Part shown: positions 915 to 9,333 of the stretch, in pieces
How the letters are laid out: each line of letters opens with the position of its first letter
How positions within the stretch are numbered: position 1 is the stretch's first letter
IMG/VR virus record: IMGVR_UViG_3300028383_000157
Span: 1-29,489 of that record
DNA: 29,489 nucleotides
Origin: a virus
Strand: one strand, 5' to 3'
Notes under the pieces: generated by a model
Database searches by the model: none
Told to the model about the DNA's origin: nothing
What the model saw: only the letters and a program-made list of their open reading frames with translations
Position numbers and translations under genes: made by a program

Positions 915-989
915 TGCCCGATAGCTCAGCGGCAGAGCAGGTGACTGTTAATCACCGGGTCGTAGGTTCGAATCCTACTCGGGCAGCCA
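915..989 (+). tRNA. tRNA-Asn(GTT)
   Basis: Complete cloverleaf. The acceptor TGCCCGA pairs with TCGGGCA at 979-985, with discriminator G986 and encoded CCA at 987-989. The D stem is GCTC/GAGC. The anticodon stem GGTGA/TCACC encloses CTGTTAA, giving anticodon GTT at 947-949. The T arm contains GGTTCGAATCC. It reads AAC and AAU. Confidence 0.95.
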
Positions 990-1013
990 TACAACGCTAC
1001 GATGAGGTACGAT

Positions 1014-1127
1014 ATGTTTAAGCGAATCACAGAGGCACTCAAGCCAACTGCGAAGACAAAAGAGGATCGTGACGACAGGTCGGAACATCGTAAGTACACG
1101 ACTCGCTACGAGGATCTTTGTCAGTAA
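1014..1127 (+). CDS. 37-aa basic mini-protein between tRNA genes
   Basis: ATG at 1014 preceded by GAGG at 1004-1007 (6-nt spacing) opens a 37-codon frame ending TAA at 1125-1127. The product begins MFKRITEALKPTAKTKEDR and ends RYEDLCQ. It is strongly charged, has no hydrophobic segment and contains one cysteine at the penultimate position. It sits between tRNA-Asn and the first tRNA-Thr. An in-frame ATG at 1002 would add four residues. I do not recognise it. The good ribosome site and absence of another explanation for the gap favour a real gene, but short frames can be chance. Confidence 0.5.
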   Translation: MFKRITEALKPTAKTKEDRDDRSEHRKYTTRYEDLCQ

Positions 1128-1141
1128 ACACTAGTATCATC

Positions 1142-1217
1142 GCCGGAGTAACTCAACTGGTAGAGTAGCGTCCTTGTAAGTCGAAGGTTAGGGGTTCGAG
1201 TCCTCTCTCCGGCACCA
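1142..1217 (+). tRNA. tRNA-Thr(TGT), weak anticodon stem
   Basis: The acceptor GCCGGAG pairs with CTCCGGC at 1207-1213, with A1214 as discriminator and CCA encoded at 1215-1217. The D stem ACTC/GAGT and T stem AGGGG/CCTCT are sound, and the T loop is TTCGAGT. The loop CTTGTAA gives anticodon TGT at 1175-1177 (Thr, ACA). The anticodon stem GCGTC/GTCGA has two non-pairs, G27 with A43 and T30 with T40, so this stem is unusually weak. Confidence 0.85.
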
Positions 1218-1227
1218 GTCACAATAC

Positions 1228-1304
1228 GGTCCCTTAGCTCAGTTGGTCAGAGCGCCGCCCTGTCACGGCGGAGGTCGCAAGTTCGAGACTTGTAGGGACC
1301 GCCA
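1228..1304 (+). tRNA. tRNA-Asp(GTC)
   Basis: The acceptor GGTCCCT pairs with AGGGACC at 1294-1300, with discriminator G1301 and CCA at 1302-1304. The anticodon stem CCGCC/GGCGG is fully paired around CTGTCAC, giving anticodon GTC at 1262-1264. The T arm is CAAGTTCGAGACTTG. Reads GAC and GAU. Confidence 0.95.
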
Positions 1305-1312
1305 TACAACCT

Positions 1313-1387
1313 GGGAGTATAGCTCAATTGGCAGAGCGTGACATTGTACGTCACAGGTTTCGGGTTCGAGTCCTGATGCTCCCACCA
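1313..1387 (+). tRNA. tRNA-Thr(TGT), second copy of this anticodon
   Basis: The acceptor GGGAGTA pairs with TGCTCCC at 1377-1383 (one G-T pair), with A1384 as discriminator and CCA at 1385-1387. The anticodon stem GTGAC/GTCAC is perfect around the loop ATTGTAC, so by position the anticodon is TGT at 1345-1347. A at position 32 is unusual because 32 is normally a pyrimidine. The body is unrelated to the other TGT tRNA at 1142. The identity rests on anticodon position only, so a scanner might score it lower. Confidence 0.8.
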
Positions 1388-1393
1388 ACAATT

Positions 1394-1469
1394 GGGTCGT
1401 TAGCTCAGCAGGAAGAGCATCGGACTTTTAATCCGCTGGTCGCAGGTTCGAATCCTGCACGACCCACCA
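1394..1469 (+). tRNA. tRNA-Lys(TTT)
   Basis: The acceptor GGGTCGT pairs with ACGACCC at 1459-1465, with CCA at 1467-1469. The loop CTTTTAA gives anticodon TTT at 1427-1429. The acceptor, D-stem start and T arm (GCAGGTTCGAATCCTGC) match the E. coli-type tRNA-Lys as I remember it, while the anticodon stem differs. This suggests a proteobacterial source for the gene. Confidence 0.95.
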
Positions 1470-1673
1470 GGCAAAAGGTAGCGCAGATCCGGTGAAAGCG
1501 CCCGTCCTCCACGATAAGTGGTCCGCACCCCAGAGTGGGATAACCAAGAGACTCCGGAATTCAACAGAACCGAGCCGCCTCTGCACCGTCAAGCGCAACT
1601 GCTGATCCGAATGAACGGATATCGCCGAGGGGATACCTTCGGAGTCGGTCACTTTATTCTTATGGAGACAACG
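1470..1673 (+). other. Spacer without a recognisable gene
   Basis: About 200 nt between tRNA-Lys and the phosphatase gene. A frame upstream of the phosphatase is open here, but only from a GTG and without a ribosome site. D-arm-like and small hairpin pieces occur (GCGC ... GCGC near 1490-1500, CCAC/GTGG near 1509-1521), but no cloverleaf with a T arm and CCA can be assembled. It may be a decayed tRNA or an mRNA leader. I see no gene in it. Confidence 0.4.
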
Positions 1674-2093
1674 ATGCCAAAGATTGAGAACTGTTCATGG
1701 GCAGACTTTCGCAAGGGTAACCATCGTCTGTCTCCGATCAATACCGTCGCAATACAGATCACCGATCCGGGTGACGTACCTCCAGAACCGGCGGAGGACG
1801 TCTTTGCCCAGCGGCACTCGTTTCAGTTTCTTGATGCGGAGGAACCCACTCGGTTCTTTCCTGAAGAGAAGCTCATATCTGACGAGCAGGCAGAGTCCAT
1901 CGCGTCGGTACTGATTCATGCGCTTGAAAACGATCAAGACGTCTTGGTTCACTGTGTCGTCGGTGTATGCCGATCGGGTGCGGTCGTTGAGGTCGCCGAG
2001 ATGATCGGCTTCGACGAGTGCTTTCGTTACAGACATCCGAACGTTCGCGTCAAGCGCAAACTCATGGAACAGTTCGATTTACTGCCCCGGTAG
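1674..2093 (+). CDS. Small dual-specificity/tyrosine-phosphatase-type protein (139 aa)
   Basis: Residues 93-102 carry the cysteine-phosphatase P-loop HCxxGxxRSG (H93, C94, G97, R100, S101), which forms the catalytic thiolate and phosphate cradle of protein tyrosine and dual-specificity phosphatases. D54 in the FLDAEEP segment is the best visible candidate for the general acid. At 139 residues this is a minimal domain. The start at 1674 was chosen for GGAG at 1664-1667 with good spacing. An in-frame ATG at 1662 is possible. The substrate is unknown: it could dephosphorylate host proteins, RNA ends or nucleotides. The last codons overlap tRNA-Arg, whose T8-A9-G10 supplies the TAG stop. Confidence 0.75.
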   Translation: MPKIENCSWADFRKGNHRLSPINTVAIQITDPGDVPPEPAEDVFAQRHSFQFLDAEEPTRFFPEEKLISDEQAESIASVLIHALENDQDVLVHCVVGVCRSGAVVEVAEMIGFDECFRYRHPNVRVKRKLMEQFDLLPR

Positions 2094-2161
2094 CTCAGCA
2101 GGATTAGAGCAACGGATTTCTACTCCGTCGGTCGAGGGTTCGAATCCTTCCCGGGGCGCCA
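2084..2161 (+). tRNA. tRNA-Arg(TCT)
   Basis: The acceptor GCCCCGG pairs with CCGGGGC at 2151-2157, with discriminator G2158 and CCA at 2159-2161. The anticodon stem ACGGA/TCCGT encloses TTTCTAC, giving anticodon TCT at 2119-2121 (AGA/AGG). The T arm is GAGGGTTCGAATCCTTC. The first 10 nt also encode the end of the phosphatase, and its TAG stop is positions 8-10 of this tRNA. Confidence 0.95.
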
Positions 2162-2227: not shown

Positions 2228-3382
2228 ATGGCTCAGGGTAACCTGCTTAAGAAGAAACCGACCACACCCAAGAAGAAGGCCGTTCCCAAGCGTCCTAAGA
2301 CCGGTCTGAAGGCCTGTCCTCTGGATCGTGGATTCGGCATGTGTCGTCGATTCTTCTACGACGAGATCGATCAGAAGGACGTGTCCAAGCTCTGTAAGGA
2401 GTACGTTCGCAAGAACTTCTCTAAGAAGGACGCACAGGCCATTCTTGCGAATCCCGAGTATCACTTCGCAATGTACAACGGTCGCGGCGCGGCCATCTTC
2501 TGGCTCAACCACGATCTTGAGTTCGAGGAGCCCTTTCAGGAGTATCCTAAGCGAGTACACCAGGCCTTCAAGGAACTGATCGAACCCGGTCAAAAGATTC
2601 TTGACGCCAAGAAGCAGTCCGACGAGGCCAAGGCTCAGCGCAAAGTTCTGACTCCGCAGGAGCTCATGCAGCGCAAGGTCAACGACACGGTCGGATACGA
2701 GCTCGACTATCTCGAGGACGAGTGGATCGAGGGTAAGAAGACCAATGTGGATCTGTACACTCTGTTTCAGAAACACGAGCTCAAGGGTGCGTCCGCTCCG
2801 TATCTCAAACCTCGTGTCGAGTTCATGCGTAACGAGTTCTACGACGCGTATCACAAGAAGGATACGAACGCGGTCGAGGGATACGATCATCTGACTAAGA
2901 AGGAGCTGAAGCGTCGTCTTGATGTCTGTGAGCGCATGCTGACGGATCTCGACAAGATCCAGGCCGCGGCCAAGGCGACACGCAAGAAGCGTACACCGAA
3001 GGCTCGTACGGCCGACAAGCAGATCAAGTACTTCAAGTTCCTGAAGGAGGACAAGACTCAGTACAAGCTGGTGTCGGTGGATCCTCTGTCGGTACCCGGT
3101 GCCTTTCGTCTGTACACGTTCAACGTCAAGAATCGTGAGCTCTGCGAGTACGTCACCACGTCGGCAAACGGATTCGAGATCAAGGGTACCACCATTCAGA
3201 ACTTTGATCCGGAGCAGTCGCGCAAGACTCGACTGCGTAAGCCCGACGACTTCCTTCCGATCGTACTCAAGAAGACACCGAATCAGATCGACAAGGAGTG
3301 GAAGAAACTCTCCACTAAGACCAACGAACCGTCCGGTCGAATCAATGCGGACACCATCCTGCTACGAGTGGAGAACAAGTAA
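2228..3382 (+). CDS. Lysine-rich phage protein of unknown function (384 aa)
   Basis: The start at 2228 has AAAGGAG at 2216-2222 upstream. The frame is open further upstream, but that part would contain the promoter. Residues 1-28 are a basic Lys/Pro tail (KKKPTTPKKKAVPKRPK) that could bind nucleic acid. The centre is helical and charged, with HLTKKELKRRLDVCERM near the middle, followed by a KATRKKRTPKART basic linker and a C-terminal beta-rich segment of about 110 residues. I recall proteins with a similar helical core from other large phages, all uncharacterised. It is the first gene of the P2 unit that continues to the cell-wall hydrolase, gp33 and gp59. Confidence 0.75.
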   Translation: MAQGNLLKKKPTTPKKKAVPKRPKTGLKACPLDRGFGMCRRFFYDEIDQKDVSKLCKEYVRKNFSKKDAQAILANPEYHFAMYNGRGAAIFWLNHDLEFEEPFQEYPKRVHQAFKELIEPGQKILDAKKQSDEAKAQRKVLTPQELMQRKVNDTVGYELDYLEDEWIEGKKTNVDLYTLFQKHELKGASAPYLKPRVEFMRNEFYDAYHKKDTNAVEGYDHLTKKELKRRLDVCERMLTDLDKIQAAAKATRKKRTPKARTADKQIKYFKFLKEDKTQYKLVSVDPLSVPGAFRLYTFNVKNRELCEYVTTSANGFEIKGTTIQNFDPEQSRKTRLRKPDDFLPIVLKKTPNQIDKEWKKLSTKTNEPSGRINADTILLRVENK

Positions 3383-3384
3383 CG

Positions 3385-3861
3385 ATGGTCGCGGAGGGTA
3401 TGGCCGCCGTGGTACTCACGTTCATGATGTCGGAGATTCCCGAGTCCGAACGTGAGTGCCTGGCTCTGAACGCGTATCACGAGGCACGCGATCAGTCCCA
3501 GTTGGGTATGATCGGTGTATCCCAGGTAGTACTGAATCGAGTCGAGGACGATCGTTTTCCGAATACGATATGCGACGTCGTACATCAGCAGCGATTCAAT
3601 GATCCACCGAACGCACCCATTCGTATCGGACGGTGTCAGTTCTCTTGGTACTGCGATGGGAAGAGCGACGCTCCTCGCGACGAGTACGCGTACGACACGG
3701 CGATGCAGACCGCCGCACACGCCTACTATCTGTACGATACCGGATACGATATCACCGAGGGCTCGACGCACTATCATGCGACTTCGGTGACTCCGAGCTG
3801 GGCATCAAGTAAACAACACGTGGTCGATATCGACGACCATCGATTCTATAGGTGGGAGTGA
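3385..3861 (+). CDS. SleB/CwlJ-type cell wall hydrolase, likely endolysin (158 aa)
   Basis: The product matches the Hydrolase_2 (SleB) pattern. YHEARDQSQLG at 31-41 holds the presumed catalytic Glu33. VSQVVLNRV and FPNTICDVVHQ follow, then CQFSWYCDG and the C-terminal THYHATSVTPSWASS motif. The family cleaves peptidoglycan glycan strands (lytic transglycosylase/amidase-like activity). The start at 3385 is two bases after the previous stop. ATGs at 3400 and 3424 are alternatives, and the weak hydrophobic N-terminus (AAVVLTFMM) is too short for a clear signal-anchor. No holin is visible nearby, so how it reaches the wall is unresolved. Confidence 0.8.
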   Translation: MVAEGMAAVVLTFMMSEIPESERECLALNAYHEARDQSQLGMIGVSQVVLNRVEDDRFPNTICDVVHQQRFNDPPNAPIRIGRCQFSWYCDGKSDAPRDEYAYDTAMQTAAHAYYLYDTGYDITEGSTHYHATSVTPSWASSKQHVVDIDDHRFYRWE

Positions 3862-6126: not shown

Positions 6127-7890
6127 TTATGGGTTCATCCCATAGGCGGACATCATGGTATCCGACGCGTTGTCCGGAACGGACGATGCCGGAGGTCTCT
6201 GCTGGAACGTGGTGTTCGAACTGTTCATAACGTTGGTGGATACGTTTGTGTCACCGCCTCCTCCTTGAGTACCACGCGCTCCTACCTGCGCCTGAACCTG
6301 AGAATCACGAAGAGCCTCACCCTCTCGCTGGAGGGCCGATCCACTCTGTACGTTGCCGCTCGGCGTCTCGGGTGTCTCAAGAACCTCACCGGTGTCTGGA
6401 TTCAGACCCGCGAACTCGTACACCGAATCGGGTATGGCCTTGGCGACGTATCCTCGAGGATCCAGAAGACCGTAGTCCTTTGCGGGATCGGGCAGTACGG
6501 ATCTTAGGATGGACTTGATGAAGTTCTCTGCGGCGTTAAGTGCGCCGGATAACATATCTCCTGGGGAGAATCCCTTAAAGGCGTCAACAAGAAAGTCCTT
6601 TGCGGAGGTAAACAACCCAAAGATCGAGTCGACGATCGATCTATAGAACTCAGCGAAGCTAAAGGATGATAGACTCTCAGACAGATTTTCAAAACCCAAC
6701 TTACTGAGTATCCAAGACACGCTTGAACGAAGTAGATCGAGTGGAGCCGTTATGATACCGGTTACTATGGTTGTAGGACTTGGGATACCCTCTCCGTTAA
6801 AACCCAGCTGTGACAGAACAAAATCTTTTGCACTCTTAAGAAGATCGAATGGAGCACTTACGATATCGGATATGACGTTCGTAAAGCTGAATGAACGAAG
6901 TGCTTTGGCCACACTTTCCATTCCAAGCTTGTCTGCAATCCACGCTGCGGCACTCTTAAGAAGGTCGAGAGGTATACCGACCAGCCCGTTCAGAAATCCT
7001 GTGATGGCACCCTGAAGACCTCCGAGTATGCCACCCTCCTTGAATCCCTCGATCGACTCACGAATGGTCTGAAACCCGATAAAGATAATGTTTAGTGGTG
7101 CAAACAGTCGACCAACCACACGAGAGACCGATCCGACCGTCCGACCAAAGTTCGTCATAGAGCTCGCGATACCGCTAAAGCTACTCGTCGCCGTACGAAA
7201 GATGGAAGTGAACTGAGATATCGCACTCGAAAAGACGTTCACGACGGGCTGCAGAACCGTTCGTACGGAGTTCACCGCAGATGTAAGACGCGCACCGATC
7301 GACTGAAAGAATCCCGTGAGGCGCTGTATCGTTGGTGTAAGTGAGCTCATAAGACCGCGAGGTGATAGTACCGATGCGACTCTTGCGCCAAAGCCACGAA
7401 ACGTATTGATGATACCGGAAAACGTCTTTTCAAGATTCACGACGCCACGAGTCATGAAAGATACCATTCTCGACAAGGACGAACCGATCGCTCTTAGACT
7501 ATCGACGTATCCTCTAAGAACGCCGGTAATCGAACCAAGAGTGACCGCAACCGGACCCATTACCAGTCCCAGATTCGTAACGTTCTCAAGAAGATCGGAG
7601 AACGATCCCTCGGTCTCTTCCTCCTGCTCGCGTCGCGTCTCCATCTTTTCGCTAAGACTCTCAAGAGCGGCCAGCATCTGTTCCTGCTGAACGGTCTGCT
7701 CTCGACGATTCTCAAGTTGATCCATCGAGTCACCACTCATGAACTCGATAAGACGATCGATATCCGTCGTAAACGTTGACGATACGTTCTCGAGCGCCTG
7801 ACCCGTCGCCTCGGTATTGGCGGCGATGTCGAGCGTGAACTCGTTGTTCGTATTCAGTTGGTCGACTACATCGGCAAATGACTGTGCCAT
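6127..7890 (-). CDS. 29: Tape-measure-like tail/baseplate hub protein (gp29 position), 587 aa
   Basis: The length equals T4 gp29 (about 590 aa), the tape measure that sets tail length from the baseplate hub, and it lies directly downstream of gp26/gp51 in the operon. Residues 30-95 are a Glu/Gln-rich coiled coil. Residues 100-300 alternate Ser-rich helices with hydrophobic Gly/Ala stretches (for example GPVAVTLGSITGVL). Residues 307-442 contain four helical repeats in an A-B-A-B pattern. The C-terminus is Gly/Asn/Gln-rich and low complexity. No catalytic motif is seen. The assignment rests on size, composition and gene order rather than a specific motif. The ATG follows the gp51 stop by 12 nt. 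Confidence 0.65.
   Translation of the reverse strand: MAQSFADVVDQLNTNNEFTLDIAANTEATGQALENVSSTFTTDIDRLIEFMSGDSMDQLENRREQTVQQEQMLAALESLSEKMETRREQEEETEGSFSDLLENVTNLGLVMGPVAVTLGSITGVLRGYVDSLRAIGSSLSRMVSFMTRGVVNLEKTFSGIINTFRGFGARVASVLSPRGLMSSLTPTIQRLTGFFQSIGARLTSAVNSVRTVLQPVVNVFSSAISQFTSIFRTATSSFSGIASSMTNFGRTVGSVSRVVGRLFAPLNIIFIGFQTIRESIEGFKEGGILGGLQGAITGFLNGLVGIPLDLLKSAAAWIADKLGMESVAKALRSFSFTNVISDIVSAPFDLLKSAKDFVLSQLGFNGEGIPSPTTIVTGIITAPLDLLRSSVSWILSKLGFENLSESLSSFSFAEFYRSIVDSIFGLFTSAKDFLVDAFKGFSPGDMLSGALNAAENFIKSILRSVLPDPAKDYGLLDPRGYVAKAIPDSVYEFAGLNPDTGEVLETPETPSGNVQSGSALQREGEALRDSQVQAQVGARGTQGGGGDTNVSTNVMNSSNTTFQQRPPASSVPDNASDTMMSAYGMNP
6565..6972 (-). repeat. Four alternating helical repeats within the tape-measure protein
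   Basis: Coding repeat, residues 307-442. Units start PLDLLKSAAAW (307), PFDLLKSAKDF (347), PLDLLRSSVSW (383) and IFGLFTSAKDF (423), with spacings of 40, 36 and 40 residues. Units 1 and 3 also share KLG ... SFSF, and units 2 and 4 share SAKDF, so the structure is a duplicated pair with a period of 76 residues. Confidence 0.75.
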
Positions 7891-7902: not shown

Positions 7903-8097
7903 CTATTGATGAGAATGCGACTTCATTCTTTCGTTTTCCTTCTGTATGTGATCGATTAACATCGCCACATATATCTCCCTTTCCCACGGTATCATCGTCT
8001 CGAGCTCACTCAGACTGTAGTTGTGATGCTGCATCATCGAGAAGTTGACTCGATAGTGATTCAGCAGATTGTCATGGGAAAGGGCTAGCTGAAAAAA
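7903..8097 (-). CDS. 51: gp51-like extension, expressed by -1 frameshift from gp26
   Basis: A frame lying -1 to gp26 is open from 8097 to the TAG at 7903-7905 and encodes FFQLALSHDNLLNHYRVNFS, then MMQHHNYSLSELETMIPWE, REIYVAMLIDHIQKE and a short tail. The HHNYSL..LE.MIPWEREIYV pattern is that of gp51, the baseplate-hub assembly factor of T4-like marine phages. There is no in-frame start codon before the ATGs at about 8037, inside the conserved part. The frame joins gp26 exactly at a TTTTTTC slippery heptamer, so the product is probably a gp26-gp51 fusion of about 298 aa. It lies 12 nt before the tape-measure ATG. Confidence 0.75.
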   Translation of the reverse strand, partial: FFQLALSHDNLLNHYRVNFSMMQHHNYSLSELETMIPWEREIYVAMLIDHIQKENERMKSHSHQ

Positions 8098-8798
8098 TTA
8101 CCAAGCCCCTTGACCTCGAACGAGTTATCGTGGCCGCACGAGACGCACTTAAACGATAGATCGATCGAGGCCGCCGGTATCGTCTCTGCGAACTGTCTGA
8201 ACTCGTTGAACTGTTTTGTGCTAAGCGACTCGATGAAATCCTTGAGTTCCTTTTCGGATTGATCGGCTGCGTCAAACACCTCTTCCTGTGTATGAATCGA
8301 ATCGATACAGGCAACGATCAGATCAAAGATTCTCTCGACGTCACTCTTGTTTGCGTTGCCCTGCGCTTTGACCATGGCGCTCACGGACGGATATCGAAGA
8401 GTCACACCGATTGAGTCGGTCAGGCGAATCGTCTTGTCGTCGTTATCGGGTACATCAACGTGGACGTCCTCGAGGTTTACGTCCACCTCGTTCTTAACCT
8501 CGCACTCTCGGCACTTGACTCCGACCGTGGTGGACTCGCCAACGGACTTTGCTCTGAGCTGCGTGAAGATGTACTCGATGTCAAAGAGAGCAAGGTTCTC
8601 GACGTCAAACCCCTCGGTCTCTATGCAGGATACGATCACGTCCTTGACTGCTCGAATCATTTGATTCGTATCGTCCGACTCCATGGCCATCATAAGGATC
8701 TTCTCCTCCTTGACCAGATATGGACGATACTCGATTCGCTCACCGGATGACGGTACGGTTAGTTCAAACTTCGGTGATTCTACTTTTGGAAGAGGCAT
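8085..8798 (-). CDS. 26: gp26-like baseplate hub protein with two CxxC pairs (237 aa)
   Basis: The N-terminus PLPKVESPKFELTVPSSGER followed by YRPYLVKEEKILMMAME is characteristic of the T4_baseplate (gp26) family, which acts in assembly of the central hub. Two CxxC knuckles (C96/C99 and C218/C221) suggest a zinc ribbon joining two distant parts of the chain. The zero frame ends with TAG at 8085-8087, five codons after the last Gly-Leu-Gly, right after the slippery heptamer. The unshifted 237-aa form and a frameshifted gp26-gp51 form are both expected, as for tail assembly chaperones. GGAG lies about 11 nt upstream of the ATG. Confidence 0.82.
   Translation of the reverse strand: MPLPKVESPKFELTVPSSGERIEYRPYLVKEEKILMMAMESDDTNQMIRAVKDVIVSCIETEGFDVENLALFDIEYIFTQLRAKSVGESTTVGVKCRECEVKNEVDVNLEDVHVDVPDNDDKTIRLTDSIGVTLRYPSVSAMVKAQGNANKSDVERIFDLIVACIDSIHTQEEVFDAADQSEKELKDFIESLSTKQFNEFRQFAETIPAASIDLSFKCVSCGHDNSFEVKGLGNFFS
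8091..8097 (-). promoter_or_regulatory. Programmed -1 frameshift heptamer T TTT TTC
   Basis: Minus strand 8097-8091 reads T TTT TTC with TTT and TTC as gp26 codons, the canonical X XXY YYZ form. Slipping one base back makes both codons TTT, and translation continues CAG CTA GCC into the gp51 frame, avoiding the gp26 TAG two codons later. Downstream, GCTGAA (8065-8060) is complementary to TTCAGC (8093-8088), a possible stimulatory stem. Confidence 0.7.
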
Positions 8799-8823: not shown

Positions 8824-9333
8824 TTATGAAACAATTTCCCAGTTATCGTACGAGAACTCTGACGATACTCGAACGATCTCGTTCTCGGACTCATTACTCA
8901 ACTCGATTGTATTTAGCGATGTAGGATAGACGTTCTTAAGAACGACCTCCTTGGTCACATCGTTCTCCGTACTCAGATGTTGAATACGAATGTTGTTACG
9001 CGCGTAGTCCGACTTATAGTTTACGGTATAACCCTCAAGACCACCGATGTTTCCAATGACTCTTCCCATCCAATCGTTGAGATAGTCCCATGTATACCAG
9101 TCGTTACGCATAAGAAACGAGATCTCGATGTCCTCCTGACCGAATGCATACGCGACCTTTGTGGCCTTCATGTCAACGAATCGTTCGTTGGTAAAGATCT
9201 GCCGGCCGGGCCATACGATCGAGTCGCAGAGCACGTTGAGCTCGCCATCACCGTCAGGAAAGAACACGCGATATCGATTCGAGCGCGCGAATCCGGATAC
9301 TGCCGCCGCCTTAAGTTCGTCGATCGAGCTCAT
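8824..9333 (-). CDS. Tail-tube-fold protein, gp19/gp54 family (169 aa)
   Basis: ATG at 9333 overlaps the upstream stop by 4 nt (ATGA), which is why it was preferred to a longer frame. The product has FARSNRYRVFF, then LCDSIVWPGRQIF, and FGQEDIEISFLMRNDWYTWDYLNDWM, the beta-rich pattern shared by T4 tail-tube gp19 and the tube initiator gp54. The size (169 aa) matches gp19 (163 aa) better than T4 gp54 (320 aa). Its position next to gp26/51 and the tape measure, far from where the sheath and major tube genes would normally lie, suggests a tube-initiator role. I cannot decide between the two. Confidence 0.7.
   Translation of the reverse strand: MSSIDELKAAAVSGFARSNRYRVFFPDGDGELNVLCDSIVWPGRQIFTNERFVDMKATKVAYAFGQEDIEISFLMRNDWYTWDYLNDWMGRVIGNIGGLEGYTVNYKSDYARNNIRIQHLSTENDVTKEVVLKNVYPTSLNTIELSNESENEIVRVSSEFSYDNWEIVS

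Follow-up and report, generated by a model that had tools for sequence, protein, structure and literature searches.

The gp26 gene of a T4-like virus appears to encode two products: the short gp26 protein itself and, through a programmed -1 ribosomal frameshift at the end of the gene, a longer protein in which gp26 is fused to a gp51-like C-terminal domain. The sequence concerned is an IMG/VR virus record of 29,489 bases that carries T4-like genes and was analysed at its full length, and to which we refer as the window. We propose that the two proteins constitute a tail assembly chaperone pair comparable to gpG and gpGT of phage lambda, and that T4 has split the same device into two genes; to this explanation as a whole we assign a probability of roughly 0.87. 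In mechanistic terms, most ribosomes translating gp26 would terminate at its own stop codon (8087..8085) and release a 237-aa protein, while a minority, aided by a Shine-Dalgarno (SD)-like element ~8 nt upstream, would slip back one base on the heptamer T TTT TTC as tRNA-Phe re-pairs with UUU, and would read on in the -1 frame to yield a gp26-gp51 fusion of ~298 aa. The gp26 protein would form a coat on the tape measure protein, and the gp51 C-terminal domain, carried by a few of the copies, would bring in tail or hub subunits. In T4 and its closest relatives, gene 26 would supply the short product and a separate gene, 51, the long one.

The minus strand of the window encodes, in order, a head closure protein (gp4-like), a DNA end protector (gp2-like), a tail-tube-like protein, gp26, the -1-frame gp51 part and the tape measure protein (Table 1). 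The -1-frame peptide is without a Pfam match, searches of PDB sequences returned chance or coiled-coil-like matches only, and a BLASTP comparison of the window's tape measure protein with T4 gp29 gave no match. Elsewhere, the left end of the window (915-2161) carries six tRNA genes (Asn, Thr, Asp, Thr, Lys, Arg), and an open reading frame at 1518-2093 holds the motif HCVVGVCRSG, which by eye is typical of dual-specificity protein phosphatases.

Table 1. Features of the gp26/gp51 region of the window, all on the minus strand
Feature	Position	Strand	Evidence
gp26 ORF, 237 aa, short "G-like" product	8085..8798	-	Pfam T4_baseplate PF12322 (E 1.7e-64), PHROG 150 (E 4e-68)
Slippery heptamer T TTT TTC, in the gp26 frame	8091..8097	-	sequence, conservation
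gp26 (0-frame) stop codon TAG, one codon past the heptamer	8085..8087	-	
Shine-Dalgarno-like AAGGGG, 8 nt upstream of the heptamer; probable frameshift stimulator	8106..8111	-	anti-SD energy
-1 reading frame: FF + 62 codons + TAG; gp51-like C-terminal domain	7903..8097	-	PHROG 634 (E 2.2e-27)
First -1-frame start codons (ATG ATG), within the conserved domain	8032..8037	-	
Tape measure protein ORF, 587 aa, 12 nt past the -1 stop	6127..7890	-	several tape-measure PHROGs, best E 2e-8
Tail tube / tube-initiator-like gene, immediately preceding gp26	8824..9333	-	PHROG 45 tail tube (E 4e-29)

An earlier note, made from the letters of this DNA, had read the end of gp26 as GGT AAT TTT TTC AGC TAG with an in-frame slippery heptamer at 8097..8091 on the minus strand, and had described a -1 frame that remains open for 62 more codons, directly upstream of the tape measure gene; coordinates and sequence bear out both descriptions. 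The -1 frame of the window translates as FFQLALSHDNLLNHYRVNFSMMQHHNYSLSELETMIPWEREIYVAMLIDHIQKENERMKSHSHQ and, 62 codons past FF, stops at TAG 7905..7903; a predicted junction peptide of the fusion would span GLGNFFQLALSHDNLLNHYR. A -1-frame stop codon (the TAA of GG TAA TTT) directly precedes the heptamer, so the gp51 part has no upstream start and cannot be entered from upstream. The further statement that no start codon lies ahead of the conserved part needs amendment, since the paired ATGs at 8037..8032 directly precede QHHNYSL. These first -1-frame ATGs (8037, 8034) nevertheless lie well inside the conserved domain: conservation begins at the heptamer, the ~17 codons before the ATGs are under purifying selection, and no start exists upstream of the heptamer. 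The heptamer by itself is not rare, with 2 occurrences in the window against 2.08 expected, and the evidence that exceeds chance is therefore its conservation.

Conservation was assessed among 247 loci gathered by gp26 similarity and from annotated phage records, some of them reached via the gp51 peptide. At 235 of these gp26/gp51 junctions an in-frame T TTT TTN (N being C, T, G or A) stands at the same place, 0-8 codons from the gp26 stop, and leads into a gp51-like -1 frame, in agreement with the conservation of heptamer and frame that the note's reading implied. With the T4 type and three distant phages set aside (LIS04, K493 and Kuja), every one of the 78 clusters (80% identity) that have an adjacent -1-frame gp51 carries the heptamer. 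Its six T's are invariant across these clusters and its second codon is TTC in 47, TTT in 27, TTG in 3 and TTA in 1, which is to say that the X and Y bases of the heptamer are fixed and Z varies; the residue before it is S, D, N or A in every cluster, specified without exception by a codon that ends in T. The probability of such synonymous choices by chance is ~10^-38 for the 78 clusters and ~10^-19 for 35 clusters formed at 60% identity, both values ignoring tree structure and shared ancestry. Heptamer-bearing loci span the Kyanoviridae, Straboviridae, Pootjesviridae and Busanvirus, and while the distance from the gp26 stop to the heptamer varies (0, 1 or 8 codons), the place of the heptamer is constant in both proteins. 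All sites are homopolymeric runs of T6 or T7, and no heptamer of the A AAA AAG or G GGA AAG type occurs among the loci. The 12 loci that lack the heptamer comprise eight gp26 genes accompanied by a separate gp51 gene on the opposite strand, one gp51 gene itself and the three distant phages; the opposite-strand arrangement is found in T4, Meroveus, PSTRCR_127, phiAS4 and IMG/VR copies. These heptamer-less loci support the frameshift reading.

The -1 frame also bears the mark of selection as a coding sequence. In 31 of the 78 clusters no ATG, GTG or TTG occurs before -1-frame codon 16, and in 19 of the 78 a -1-frame stop directly precedes the heptamer. Within the 31 start-less clusters, codons 3-19 of the -1 frame have a pN/pS of 0.28, whereas the two remaining frames of this stretch give 1.3 and 1.6, and the -1-frame value in the window's own group is 0.21. 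Purifying selection upstream of any possible start implies that this stretch is translated in the -1 frame.

Averaged over the family, the anti-SD pairing energy passes through a sharp minimum 6-10 nt upstream of the heptamer, with -6.4 kcal/mol observed compared with -4.95 on synonymous resampling that leaves the protein unchanged (Wilcoxon p 2e-9) and -1.4 kcal/mol at random gp26 positions; the best value in the window is -6.8 kcal/mol, with AAGGGG at 8111..8106. Downstream, the stimulatory stem that the earlier note envisaged between TTCAGC and GCTGAA does not hold up: the repeat is present, but shares bases with the slip site, does not appear in the predicted fold, and has a comparable counterpart in only 4 of the 78 clusters. 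The folding tool detected no significant downstream structure in the window (z -0.81), and our own shuffling of a shorter segment gave -2.8; a 14-bp stem in the window starts ~24 nt past the heptamer. Clear downstream structure is limited to the S-PM2-like group, in which a 12-bp hairpin begins 9 nt past the heptamer, with 93.8% of cells paired and one pair changed on both sides, and this hairpin looks real. In S-PM2-like phages it is strong and AU-rich (locus L083, 2501-2560), with the annotated gp51 ATG at its 5' edge, and it might also hinder separate initiation of gp51.

Two accounts would dispense with ribosomal frameshifting. According to one, gp51 is synthesised on its own, by termination-reinitiation or by internal initiation at a -1-frame ATG, and the T-run is incidental. 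A separate gp51 is indeed annotated in S-PM2, P-SSM2, phi-ST2 and phiM9, where an ATG lies at or just past the gp26 stop; about a third of the clusters (26/78) have an ATG at -1-frame codons 3-5, from which a separate gp51 could also start, and the window has its own ATG pair. Against this stand the selection acting on codons 3-19 in clusters that are start-less before codon 16, the retention of the heptamer in the ATG-bearing phages too, the position of the SD-like element ~17-23 nt from those ATGs, too distant to serve them, and the structure of T4 gp51, which runs on from its gp26-like domain unbroken; we regard this account as very improbable. The other account has RNA polymerase, not the ribosome, slip on the T6-T7 run, so that out-of-register mRNAs give the fusion. 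The homopolymeric nature of every site would suit it, but six T's are short for efficient slippage, described cases having ~9 A/T (PMC5009743), and the in-frame X XXY YYZ phase, the free Z base and the upstream SD-like element are ribosomal features, which leaves polymerase slippage with hardly any probability. Ribosomal frameshifting at the heptamer is, on these sequence grounds, very probable.

T4 itself is organised differently. The earlier note had extended the device to gp26/gp51 of T4-like phages in general, and this calls for refinement: in T4 itself, gene 26 and gene 51 occupy opposite strands and there is no frameshift. At the corresponding place the T4-type gp26 genes lack the heptamer and have GAG TTC TTT (GAG TTC TTT GAG in T4). 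A profile of the predicted fusions nevertheless aligns with T4-type gp51 (249 aa in T4) collinearly and over its full length, with 99.6% probability and an E value of 2.9e-24, and the alignment runs through the shift point ungapped; taken singly, the -1 part matches at E 1.6e-9 and the gp26 part at E 2.2e-15. Searched against the six-frame translation of the T4 genome, a profile of the -1 peptide built with no T4 sequence in it finds the C-terminus of gene 51 only (E 5.8e-6), and the gp26 profile has just two hits in that genome, gene 26 (6e-48) and gene 51 (9e-5). Both T4 proteins are covered by PHROG 150 and Pfam PF12322. In AlphaFold2 models of the window's gp26 (pLDDT 93.7) and of T4-type gp51 (pLDDT 88.5) the order of secondary structure elements is closely similar, with gp51 adding three C-terminal helices. 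Taken with the comparison of loci above, these results show that the shift site, the frame and the C-terminal domain are conserved and that the predicted fusion is the equivalent of T4 gp51. The proposed programmed -1 fusion ahead of the tape measure gene that the note had likened to lambda G/GT draws support from four sides: the conserved heptamer, selection in the -1 frame, the SD-like element and the collinear match with T4 gp51.

That T4 gp51 would be the frameshift product in the form of an ordinary single-ORF protein, a gp26-like domain followed by a gp51 tail, is well supported by the profile matches, and T4 appears to make its short (26) and long (51) products from two separate genes. 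Two groups within the family to which T4 belongs, Schizotequatrovirus and Chrysonvirus, retain the heptamer, and the split two-gene state is therefore most simply viewed as derived. A phylogenetic tree joins T4 gp26 with T4 gp51 but flags long branches, and is merely consistent with a duplication in the T4 branch. We think it likely that T4 is no exception to the G/GT rule, an ancestral gene 26 frameshift having been replaced by duplication in its branch, with gp26 corresponding to G and the "assembly catalyst" gp51 to GT. As a separate observation, PHROG 1140, the gp28 family, matches T4 gp26 (E 9e-4), and T4 gp28 (locus L082, 5849-6382) may be a third gp26 relative.

Several lineages depart from the common pattern, and others are incompletely annotated. 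In Listeria phage LIS04 (locus L087, ~3165-3420) a gp26 homologue that has the tail tube gene on one side and the tape measure gene on the other ends in GAG TTT TTT AGT ACC and is followed, in the +1 frame and with no annotated gene, by the gp51-like sequence ESMAVFERTELYSRLL, which suggests that this lineage uses a +1 or -2 shift. Vibrio phages K493 (L093) and Kuja (L097) have a gp51-like -1 frame after gp26 at a non-canonical site, A CTT TTC or C CTT TTT, and K493 has an overlapping ATG. The records of S-SSM6b, S-H9-1, ACG-2014d, S-PRM1, S-CAM1 and avDM12-TAAL (L101, L260, L261, L262, L263 and L091) leave a gap of ~175-270 nt that holds the -1 frame unannotated, and those of Mosig and Melnitz (L098, L099) annotate gp51 from an internal ATG, without its conserved first 20 residues; gp26 of Mosig extends 8 codons beyond the heptamer. 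No joined CDS was found in the annotated regions inspected.

The functional part of the proposal starts from position. A long open reading frame begins within 60 nt downstream in 54 of 70 loci, and in the window the gap to the tape measure gene is 12 nt. We reason that the gp26/fusion pair behaves like gpG/gpGT because of this position, because of the short/long pairing, and because T4 gp51 is required yet absent from the particle (PMC3004832). Both gp26 and gp51 have been listed as hub assembly chaperones (PMC3004832). The idea of a chaperone function has already been voiced in the GenBank record of Acinetobacter phage Meroveus, where "tape measure protein assembly chaperone" is the label of gp26, gp51 and gp28. 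Foldseek searches with the gp26 and T4 gp51 models returned no significant PDB fold match; similarity to the HK97 gp13 chaperone fold was sub-threshold (2ob9, E 0.8; 3fgx, E 1.1), and no known tail assembly chaperone was among the best 50 matches of the T4 gp51 model. A fusion might exist and yet act, together with gp26, on the baseplate hub (gp27/gp5/gp29) and not as a tape-measure chaperone of the lambda kind. The naming of T4 gp26 and gp51 for hub assembly (PMC3004832), genetic work that in part places gp26 in the hub, and the lack of a significant match to a solved tail assembly chaperone fold would all accord with such a role; a tube-like gene upstream, a tape measure directly downstream, a short/long pair related by frameshifting and the absence of T4 gp51 from the particle match G/GT instead, and because the T4 tape measure protein gp29 is itself a hub component, the two readings overlap. 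We consider action on the hub unlikely, and a lambda-like chaperone role for the gp26/fusion pair probable.

A 2016 review of frameshifting described G-T frameshifting as widely conserved in long-tailed phages "except T4" (PMC5009743). Our results suggest that T4-like phages do use the frameshift device and that T4 converted it to two genes. The device should be present in the window phage and in almost all of the relatives examined outside T4's branch, with a slip predicted for some ribosomes. Our search of the open-access literature turned up no mention of the frameshift, and none of an equivalence between the fusion and gp51. A two-gene state would explain the apparent exception of T4, would give a concrete and testable role to the essential but functionally uncharacterised T4 protein gp51, and would provide a natural case in which frameshifting was replaced by gene duplication; at a practical level, the gp51 part is absent or shortened in several public cyanophage annotations.

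Tail chaperones produced by lambda-type -1 frameshifting also occur in HK97, in P2 (E/E') and in many other phages. With lambda gpG/gpGT the present system shares, at the level of sequence arrangement, a short protein and a minor -1 frameshift extension encoded directly upstream of the tape measure, and the lambda proteins are described as absent from virions, as is T4 gp51. It differs in that our profile searches reveal no sequence link and the fold similarity to HK97 gp13 is sub-threshold (E 0.8), and in that the G-like part is here a 237-aa protein with Zn-ribbon-like motifs and the site is T TTT TTN. T4 gp26 and gp51, assigned to baseplate hub assembly, correspond to the short product by homology and to the predicted fusion end to end, respectively, but are encoded by two opposite-strand genes with no heptamer and no frameshift. 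The "gp26" and "gp51" of S-PM2 and P-SSM2 agree in genes, order and heptamer, the S-PM2 group adding a strong hairpin past the site; they differ in being annotated as two genes, with gp51 beginning at an ATG that may also permit its separate synthesis. The E. coli dnaX cassette likewise combines a slippery heptamer with an upstream internal SD that acts as a stimulator and that the SD-like element here resembles, but its heptamer is A AAA AAG in place of T TTT TTN, the window's group has no conserved downstream stem, and the shift proposed here would yield a longer product, not a shorter one.
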